From the IMG/VR virus record IMGVR_UViG_3300017745_000006, positions 1 to 59,296 of that record: 59,296 nucleotides of DNA; one strand, 5' to 3'. The position numbers and the translations under genes were made by a program. Within the stretch, counting starts at the first letter, position 1. Every line of letters starts with the position of its first letter. Source of the stretch: a virus. This document shows, piece by piece, positions 58,028 through 59,296 of this stretch. The notes beneath the pieces were generated by a model. The model made no database searches. It saw only the letters and a list, made by a program, of their open reading frames with translations, and had not been told where the DNA came from.

Positions 58028-58196
58028 TAACAGTAACGAAACAGAGTACAGAGCATTTGGTCCAACCAAGTGCCACTACTGCGACGGCAGAGGATTTCAA
58101 ATAATCCAATGCACAACTTTAGAAGGAAAGATACTGCCCAACTTGGTAGAAGACTGCGAACGGTGTAATGAAACAGGCGTACTTAACCGAGATTAA
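58014..58196 (+). CDS. Small zinc-ribbon protein (DnaJ-type CxxCxGxG)
   Basis: 60 aa from the ATG at 58014. An upstream in-frame start at 57939 lies inside the dUTPase gene and is unlikely. Two Cys pairs, KCHYCDGRGFQ (CxxCxGxG) and DCERCNETGVL (CxxCxxTG), resemble the zinc-binding repeats of DnaJ. It could bind one zinc and a protein or nucleic acid. Overlaps of 14 bases with the dUTPase gene and 29 with the HNH gene show translational coupling. Function unknown. Confidence 0.7.
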   Translation: MKKTDNSNETEYRAFGPTKCHYCDGRGFQIIQCTTLEGKILPNLVEDCERCNETGVLNRD

Positions 58197-58662
58197 TAAA
58201 TTAGCTAAAGAACAAATTCTCGTTCTTAACGCCTCATACGAGCCAATAAATATTACTTCTTGGAAAAGAGCATTTGTTCTCTTGCTCAAAGAGAAAGCTT
58301 TGGTTATTAGCCAGAAAGTCATTCGCCTAGTTAATTTCATTAAAATTCCTTTTAACAAGATGATGAGGGCCAAGCCAAGCAGAAGCTCCATTTACACAAG
58401 AGATAGCAACAAATGTCAATATTGTGGCTCTGCTAAAAGACTCACAATAGACCACGTTGTTCCTAAATCAAAAGGAGGGACAGACGACTGGGATAACCTA
58501 GTTGTTGCATGCTCCTCCTGTAATACAAAGAAGAGTAATAAACTGCTAGAGCAGAGCGGGCTAAAGCTAATTAAAAAACCGGCAAGGCCAAGAACGTATC
58601 TAGACCTTACTATTTTTCAAACTAAGTGCGAAGAATGGAAAGAATATTGCTTTATAGTTTAA
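58168..58662 (+). CDS. HNH endonuclease, cyanobacterial/phage type
   Basis: 164 aa. The N-terminal region ILVLNASYEPINITSWKRAFVLLLKEKALVI, then SIYTRDSNKCQYCGSAKRLTIDHVVPKSKGGTDDWDNLVVACSSCNTKKSNK. The DH and N residues of the HNH core and the two CxxC zinc pairs are present. It would nick or cut DNA. Many tailed phages carry an HNH protein needed for packaging, but this one lies far from the terminase gene, so a homing or repair role is also possible. Its stop codon lies in a GTTTAAAT box. Confidence 0.85.
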   Translation: MKQAYLTEINKLAKEQILVLNASYEPINITSWKRAFVLLLKEKALVISQKVIRLVNFIKIPFNKMMRAKPSRSSIYTRDSNKCQYCGSAKRLTIDHVVPKSKGGTDDWDNLVVACSSCNTKKSNKLLEQSGLKLIKKPARPRTYLDLTIFQTKCEEWKEYCFIV

Positions 58663-58674: not shown

Positions 58675-58685
58675 AGGAAGTGTAA

Positions 58686-58757
58686 AACTTACTACGCTTC
58701 TTCCGTTCATCTCACTTTGTGAGACGCAAGTAAGTCGCGCAACGGAACGTTGATCCC
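58686..58757 (+). promoter_or_regulatory. Glutamine-II (Downstream-peptide type) riboswitch
   Basis: The leader contains CGTTC (58704-58708), a hairpin TCTCAC-TTT-GTGAGA (58710-58724), then ACGCAAGTAAG (58724-58734), then GGAACG (58744-58749). This order, CGTTCA / hairpin / ACGGAAGTAGG-like / GGAACG, is the shared core of the glnA and Downstream-peptide RNAs, which bind glutamine in cyanobacteria. P1 is CGTTC with GAACG. ACTTAC (58688-58693) can pair with GTAAGT (58730-58735), crossing P1 as a pseudoknot. The likely ribosome site GGAAC lies in the 3' P1 strand, 9 bases before the ATG at 58758, so ligand binding could occlude it. One core base differs (ACGC for ACGG). Confidence 0.8.
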
Positions 58758-58919
58758 ATGGTAGAATTTTTATTATATTCATCACTCACATGCGCTCAAG
58801 CCGACGCAATTATGCTAAGGATGAAAGCAAACGAGAATATCTCCGCCGCTTTTAAAATTGAGTTAGTAGAAACCGTAAAGGAATCTGTACCTGAGTGTTA
58901 TTGGGACGCAAACGACTGA
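58758..58919 (+). CDS. 53 aa downstream peptide, riboswitch-controlled
   Basis: It reads MVEFLLYSSLTCAQADAIML, then RMKANENISAAFKIELVETV, and ends KESVPECYWDAND. I recognise this type: small cyanobacterial and cyanophage proteins lying after Downstream-peptide RNAs, with FLLYxSMxCxxADAI and a final WDAND. I found it by reading the plus strand. Two Cys (residues 12 and 47) are conserved in my recollection of the family. The role is not known to me; control by a glutamine riboswitch suggests a link to nitrogen metabolism, perhaps host glutamine synthetase or its regulators. It ends 42 bases before the next gene. Confidence 0.85.
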   Translation: MVEFLLYSSLTCAQADAIMLRMKANENISAAFKIELVETVKESVPECYWDAND

Positions 58920-58961
58920 AGGAACGGGGCCTAAAAATCCAACTACTTCAGGAGTACCACA

Positions 58962-59126
58962 ATGAACACACTCGACATCATCAAGAAGCAGATCAACAAA
59001 GCATCTGCACTTCACGACGCACAGATCGCTCACACCGCATACCGCGGAGTAGAGTACGAACTATGCGGCAAGGCCGAAGAAACCCATGGCACATTCTGCT
59101 ATAGAGGTCGTACTTACAGCCGATGA
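58962..59126 (+). CDS. 54 aa DUF4278-like protein
   Basis: MNTLDIIKKQINKASALHDA, then HTAYRGVEYELCGK, and FCYRGRTYSR at the end. The paired YRGVxY / CYRGxxY segments resemble DUF4278, a cyanobacterial and cyanophage family of unknown function. A GGAG ribosome site lies 8 bases before the ATG, and a clear terminator follows. It was found by direct reading. It may be co-transcribed with the riboswitch peptide. Confidence 0.75.
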   Translation: MNTLDIIKKQINKASALHDAQIAHTAYRGVEYELCGKAEETHGTFCYRGRTYSR

Positions 59127-59131
59127 TAACT

Positions 59132-59154
59132 AAGGGCCTAACGGCCCTTTTTTT
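59132..59154 (+). terminator. Rho-independent terminator, probably bidirectional
   Basis: AAGGGCC, loop TAAC, GGCCCTT, then a T-run. The minus strand also has adenines that become a short T-run, so it can serve the converging gene at 59153. Confidence 0.85.
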
Positions 59155-59296
59155 ATACGCCCCAGATAGGCTCCATTGTTTTCTTAGAGACTACGTTAGA
59201 TTGACGCAAGATCTTTGGAGTACCATCGTCCTTGAGCTCAGGCTCGATCCAATCACGGTTGCCATCGAGAGCCGCTGCGATTTCACTAATCCAGTC
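59153..59296 (-). CDS. C-terminal part of an unidentified gene (5' end outside window)
   Basis: The minus strand is open from the right edge for 47 codons and ends in TAA at 59155-59153. The visible residues run DWISEIAAALDGNRDWIEPE, then DDGTPKILRQSNVVSKKTMEP and IWGV. They are helical and then charged. Too little is visible to name the protein. The terminator at 59132-59154 ends both this gene and the converging one. Confidence 0.6.
   Translation of the reverse strand, partial: DWISEIAAALDGNRDWIEPELKDDGTPKILRQSNVVSKKTMEPIWGV

Follow-up and report, generated by a model that had tools for sequence, protein, structure and literature searches.

We found that positions 58704 to 58927 of the window probably form a single glutamine-I-type aptamer that is split by a protein gene and may work as a two-gene glutamine toggle. 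The window, the whole 59,296-nt stretch of DNA that was analysed, represents part of a T4-like cyanophage genome, with S-TIM5 as the nearest relative at 79%. Comparison with related phages showed, as far as pairing can be predicted from sequence, a nested architecture, a dual constraint on RNA and protein, and an alternative CUGAAG/CUUCAG helix. In the proposed structure, the outer helix P1, hairpin P2(1), loop E (AGUA/GAA) and P3 would make up the ligand fold. P3 would enclose a second three-way junction, formed by hairpin H together with helix P2(2). The P2(2) loop would hold a complete gene for a 53-aa peptide, whose last five codons and stop codon would belong to the RNA core. The features of the locus are as follows.

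58704–58708, + strand: P1 5' strand CGUUC; the aptamer begins here; partner strand at 58922–58926
58710–58724, + strand: P2(1) hairpin UCUCAC-UUU-GUGAGA; variable, covarying stem
58725–58732, + strand: core 1, CGCAAGUA; loop E strand AGUA together with the G and C of the ligand site
58733–58737, + strand: P3 5' strand AGUCG; pairs with 58913–58917
58740–58752, + strand: inner hairpin H, CAACG-GAA-CGUUG; precedes the start codon
58754–58758, + strand: P2(2) 5' strand UCCCA; final base is the A of AUG; covaries with 58902–58906
58758–58919, + strand: 53-aa peptide gene, phrog_504; in the P2(2) loop
58902–58906, + strand: P2(2) 3' strand UGGGA; within codons Trp49–Asp50
58907–58912, + strand: core 2, CGCAAA; within codons Asp50–Asn52
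58913–58917, + strand: P3 3' strand CGACU; ends on the U that opens the stop codon UGA
58916–58921, + strand: switching strand CUGAAG; pairs with 58946–58951; overlaps P3, loop E, the edge of P1 and the stop codon
58918–58920, + strand: loop E, GAA strand; shares bases with the stop codon
58922–58927, + strand: P1 3' strand GAACG, followed by the G that takes part in the long-range C:G pair
58946–58951, + strand: CUUCAG; adjoins the Shine-Dalgarno sequence AGGAG (58950–58954) of the DUF4278-like gene
58962–59126, + strand: DUF4278-like protein, 54 aa, phrog_545 (E 5.5e-32); likely the controlled gene
59132–59156, + strand: intrinsic terminator; closes the two-gene unit

The initial annotation had described a leader with a glutamine-riboswitch-like core. 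The core was present at 58701–58754, and, at relaxed limits, covariance models of both glutamine families matched at the leader, but the scores in the window were below the curated thresholds: RF01739 gave 24.6 bits (threshold 35) and RF01704 gave 23.5 bits (threshold 33). The leader match had an E-value of 3.2e-5 (one family, whole record), and no Rfam family reached threshold in the window. The core was nearly invariant upstream of the gene in about 80 distinct relatives, indicating that the match in the window was not due to chance. The leader consensus of these relatives, CGTTCATC-hairpin-GACGCAAGTAAGTCGCG(G/C)AACGGAG-CGTT(C/G)ATCCC-ATG, was almost unchanged outside the hairpin. None of 34 ORF-bearing relatives reached the RF01739 threshold and none reached that of RF01704, because of the long embedded gene. 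Three ORF-less elements, L228, L212 and L204, scored 42.9, 40.3 and 38.4 bits with RF01739 (threshold 35) and aligned with it end to end via nested P1 and P3. The absence of any ORF-bearing member at the curated threshold, together with the replacement of GAA by AAA in a third of cases, could also point to a drifted or protein-bound relic, that is, a structured leader controlling how both the peptide and the DUF4278-like protein are translated but no longer able to bind glutamine. We consider such a loss quite unlikely, since the ligand-contact bases and the long-range C:G pair were invariant or nearly so and ORF-less members exceeded the threshold.

The RNA had been thought to end before the gene. 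Instead, we found its 3' half at 58902–58927, across the 3' end of the ORF. It lies 182 nt downstream of the leader half and overlaps the last five codons of the peptide plus the stop codon. In the window, the 3' motif reads TGG GAC GCA AAC GAC TGA AGGAACGGGG, which is where the peptide gene ends. Among phage loci that had 700 nt of downstream sequence and were not selected for a 3' half, 175 of 176 had the 3' half following the 5' half. The spacing between the halves was 41–56 nt without an ORF and 182–284 nt with one, and 174 of 181 embedded ORFs stopped at the identical base of the RNA core, with TGA or TAA. Four relatives lack the peptide; in them, CGTTCATCCC-TTCG-GGGACGCAAACGACTAAAGGAACGGGCC, the sequence of L211, or a similar one reads straight through.

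Covariation then indicated how the two halves pair. P1 had been placed within the leader, which covariation contradicts: by this measure, the CGUUC at the leader's 5' end pairs with GAACG at 58922–58926, and the leader's CAACG pairs instead with the CGUUG just 5' of the start codon. The nested helices P1, P3 and H were paired in all 147 distinct elements, where the 3' strands of P1 and P3 had been anchored by a motif search that tolerated two substitutions. A compensatory P1 type, CGUUU/AAACG, was found in L080, L177 and L243, and P3 showed only G-U changes among the 147 paired elements. The near-invariance of P1 and P3, whose support is mostly agreement rather than covariation, counts against the split-aptamer reading. 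No AGUCG loop variant, on which covariation of P3 could be judged, was found among 2.9 million viral contigs. The closing pair of hairpin H, GNAACG(1)/CGUUN(2), underwent a GC-to-CG double change (124 G-C vs 23 C-G, zero exceptions). Parsimony gave 16 changes in H, near the shuffled value of 20, on a short and probably recombining tree; the change arose more than once, but how often independently is uncertain.

P2(2), which spans the gene, showed exchanges of UA/CG, CG/UA/UG and CG/UA/GC/UG, with the strand variants UCCC/GGGA, CCU/AGG, CUC/GAG and, with Asp changed to Gly, ACCCC/GGGGC. In four relatives, UCCC/GGGA became CCCC/GGGG and the encoded residue changed from Asp to Gly; the base 5' of AUG thus covaries with the D/G residue of 'W(D/G)AND'. 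Both P2(2) strands were replaced in L230 (GAUUAUGGU/ACCAUAAUC, GAUUA/UAAUC), and its peptide frame no longer yields DAND. In 30 spliced rows, 96.7% of the cells of the nested structure were paired and 12 pairs showed double changes, with the P2(1) 5' strand chosen partly by pairing. The covariation score was 0.241 for the nested structure, vs 0.074 for shuffled and at most 0.058 for slid alignments, and it was lower for a tandem version.

In that tandem version, two ordinary aptamers would follow each other, with CGUUC(1)/GGAACG(1) before the gene and CGUUC(2)/GGAACG(2) around it, and would touch via their complementary AGUCG and CGACU loops. Every ligand-contact base is present in each unit, and 157 doublet glutamine riboswitches are known (PMC9481103). 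Unit 2 alone of ORF-less L204 reached the RF01704 threshold (34.0), the only such case. However, both closing pairs of the tandem form were mismatched in 23 of 147 distinct elements, in which the nested pairing was perfect, and the CGUUU/AAACG of L080 fits only the nested form. Simple tandem aptamers are therefore unlikely, and we rejected them as the main form for their lower pairing and covariation; the tandem form may be an alternative conformation. The phage element resembles the tandem riboswitches of PMC9481103 in having conserved half-sites in two copies but differs from them in its interleaved strands and intervening ORF, an arrangement that the survey excluded (PMC9481103).

In energy folding without constraints, the nested structure, with its P1/P2/P3 three-way junction also evident from covariation, had the lowest energy for two RNAs: ORF-less L211 and a version of the window in which a tetraloop replaces the ORF. 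Two other folds count against the split-aptamer reading. The predicted fold of ORF-less L212 kept P3, H and both P2 helices and lacked P1. When the full window was folded without ligand, the probability of P1 and P3 was near zero, which matches what the model would lead one to expect of the unbound state and is not a proof.

We then compared the element with known glutamine riboswitches. Its assignment to the glutamine-II class was correct as to glutamine-riboswitch kinship, but the glutamine-I class, with its loop E three-way junction, describes the element better. Loop E had AGUA in 147 of 147 distinct elements, facing GAA in 100 (the window included) and AAA in 47; the AAA third also counts against the split-aptamer reading. 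Core 1 (CGCAAGUA) was invariant in all 147 and agrees with the RF01739 core, and core 2 had CGC in 145. The bases corresponding to the glutamine-I ligand contacts C1, G2, G22, C58 and G59 (PMC6698751) were invariant or nearly so, and the glutamine-I crystal construct, CGUUGACCC...GGGCGGAAGUAAGG...CCUGAAGCAACG (PMC5393176), maps piecewise onto the phage strands. An ACGC-for-ACGG change had been feared to abolish binding; it is compensated by the G after GGAACG, giving C:G in 145 of 147 distinct elements, and glutamine-II RNAs have such a long-range pair in C19:G41 (PMC6698751). The possible pseudoknot did not hold up: a 3' hairpin that could pair with the 5' CGUUC was not found, the nested helices account for these bases, and the RF01704 alignment had broken pairs at the pseudoknot hairpin position.

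Like glutamine-I RNAs (glnA, type 1; RF01739), the phage element has the P1-P2-P3 junction, loop E AGUA/GAA, the ligand-contact bases, the link to DUF4278/gifB genes and the expected ON logic. Unlike them, it has a second junction and an entire gene within P3, its long-range pair is C:G rather than G:C, and its ORF-bearing form is sub-threshold. It shares with glutamine-II RNAs (Downstream-peptide, type 2; RF01704) the CGCA core, the C:G long-range pair, nearby small-peptide and DUF4278 genes, and the picocyanobacterial setting; it differs in that the peptide lies inside the RNA and not after it, that no pseudoknot hairpin was found and that the score is sub-threshold. A glutamine-II RNA with a downstream peptide was rejected on the basis of the model scores and the covariation.

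The gene had been attributed to the peptide family that follows glutamine-II RNAs. A phrog_504 gene is present, the peptide matching that profile over residues 1–53 of 53 (E 1.7e-29), but it is located inside the aptamer and not simply downstream. Codons 2–46 had a median dN/dS of 0.23 (401 pairs), indicating that the peptide is conserved as a protein. At codons 49–53, synonymous sites were nearly frozen, in contrast to the free codons before them: the Ala51 codon was GCA in 83 of 84 peptides, and Asp50 was never GAT. Peptides as unlike as MVEFLLYSSLTC..., MKFLLPLLLL... and MLSLALIFFSHV... share a DAND or DAHD end. AlphaFold gave a low-confidence two-helix hairpin (residues 12–24 and 30–43, pLDDT 71), and Cys12 and Cys47 would lie at the same end of this predicted hairpin. 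The H loop lacked GGAG in about a dozen elements (GUUC/GAA types, the window included); as regards initiation of the peptide, these loops count against the split-aptamer reading.

Other genes were found in the remaining loops. The P2(1) loop of 33 relatives (L173, L088, L126 and 30 others) contains a second ORF of about 65 aa with a hydrophobic start and the pattern MSCERF...C; its start codon abuts the stem, and its stop codon lies inside the 3' strand of the stem in most. Its two-cysteine pattern resembles that of the 53-aa peptide (profile comparison E 6e-5, probability 65%). The H loop of L104 holds a GIY-YIG-like gene (1638–2450), and L249 and L290 carry deletion remnants of such a gene there. 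Thus, all three hairpins, P2(1), P2(2) and H, are gene slots. Homing endonuclease genes sit in group I intron loops, where protein genes likewise occupy peripheral loops of a folded RNA; the phage RNA differs in that it would be a metabolite switch and in that the gene shares core bases. As the same slots hold differing ORFs, none, or a GIY-YIG-like gene, the flanking motifs might be sites at which small genes and homing endonucleases recombine or are exchanged as cassettes, with incidental pairing. This is very improbable, because four helices have compensatory changes and no DNA-level model predicts the link between stop codon and Shine-Dalgarno sequence; cassette exchange may occur in addition to RNA structure.

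The second gene of the unit is the putative target of the switch. The window protein scored 17.0 bits against DUF4278 (PF14105), for which the Pfam gathering score is 25.3, and 13 of 13 relatives had a DUF4278 match at E ≤ 0.1 (best E 1.2e-5). In the 6-bp alternative helix next to its Shine-Dalgarno sequence, CUGAAG or CUAAAG faces CUUCAG or CUUUAG; the covarying pair was AU in 45, GC in 61, GU in 32 and AC in 0 of 138 (Fisher p 1e-15, uncorrected for kinship). In the ligand-free energy model, this helix had a pair probability of 0.94–0.97 and P1 and P3 were near zero, indicating that helix and aptamer are alternatives. The target of this anti-Shine-Dalgarno helix is most likely the DUF4278-like gene, which was absent from the initial annotation. 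Glutamine riboswitches are ON switches and typically control DUF4278/gifB genes (PMC6316151; PMC6698751). We infer a candidate switch by which glutamine would turn DUF4278 on and by which the folded RNA would mask the start of the peptide. At high glutamine, the aptamer would close and block the alternative helix, so that DUF4278 would be translated while the peptide start would be masked between H and P2(2). At low glutamine, the aptamer would open, the DUF4278 Shine-Dalgarno sequence would be partly paired and the peptide could be made; ribosomes translating its gene would hold the aptamer open. The outcome would be a two-gene glutamine toggle.

It is also possible, if doubtful, that the element is a nested double aptamer, in which two back-to-back glutamine pockets on a shared P3 would cooperatively choose between peptide and DUF4278. 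The outer aptamer would be canonical; the inner one would be circularly permuted, hold the peptide gene and consist of hairpin H as P1', P2(2), the CGC core and the G after GNAACG.

A sigma-70 promoter was found at P1 in 133 of 168 relatives and ended 7–9 nt before P1 in most, so the RNA is expected to begin with the aptamer. No such promoter was found in the window (58680–58703), which counts against the split-aptamer reading. The same interval carries GAAGTGTAAAACTTACTACGCTTC with GTA-N8-TAC, an NtcA-site-like sequence that also occurs in L174, L185, L190 and L257. An NtcA site 5' of P1 was rejected, as it fits the window and a few others; in most relatives, an inverted repeat whose sequence is unrelated takes its place. 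In relatives such as L117 and L211, the -10 box lies within an inverted repeat that varies in sequence (for example AGGTCTATAATAGACCT and TGTCATGCTATCATGACA). Arms of at least 5 were found in 131 of 144 distinct upstream sequences vs 28 in shuffles, and the repeat looks like a structure rather than a single operator. In the window, an HNH endonuclease gene (58168–58662) stops about 40 nt 5' of the aptamer and may have replaced the usual promoter.

The claim that phages carry glutamine-riboswitch-like RNA holds, and phage-borne glutamine riboswitches were already known (PMC9964418; PMC9004378). The phrog_504 peptide was found in 311 phage records, all from named cyanophages or phages of Synechococcus or Prochlorococcus, and a near-exact search found the RNA core in 290 GenBank phage records. 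The phage family of the element is very common among marine cyanobacterial viruses. Phage ACG-2014j has an intact peptide gene without annotation (KJ019089.1, 187719–187877). A scan of bacterial and archaeal genomes with the exact core gave four matches, all outside cyanobacteria, and found no copy in a cyanobacterial host. One match (L296, Nonlabens xiamenensis NODE_6) was rejected as a host copy; it is 98% identical to cyanophage P-TIM40, indicating contamination. The other three (L295, L297 and L298) are metagenome bins in which the same element is present. All four appear as cyanophage-type sequence within non-cyanobacterial assemblies.

The literature searched yielded no prior account of a riboswitch aptamer that contains a gene; one is possible in Ames and Breaker 2011, Klahn 2018 or the Weinberg 2010 supplement. 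Other riboswitches are coupled to upstream ORFs, as in the B12/ppe2 system of M. tuberculosis, where a downstream gene is under the combined control of a riboswitch and a small ORF, perhaps through translational coupling; that ORF is not reported to lie in an aptamer loop or to provide aptamer bases (PMC11260477). In an aptamer built around a protein gene, where the stop codon and C-terminal residues double as aptamer bases, the usual division between sensing leader and coding sequence breaks down. The shared RNA core explains the DAND ends of differing peptides, and the split architecture explains the failure of Rfam to detect the element in hundreds of cyanophages. Split, gene-bearing members are conceivable in other riboswitch classes. 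For marine viruses, the element is a candidate route to read the nitrogen status of the host during infection.
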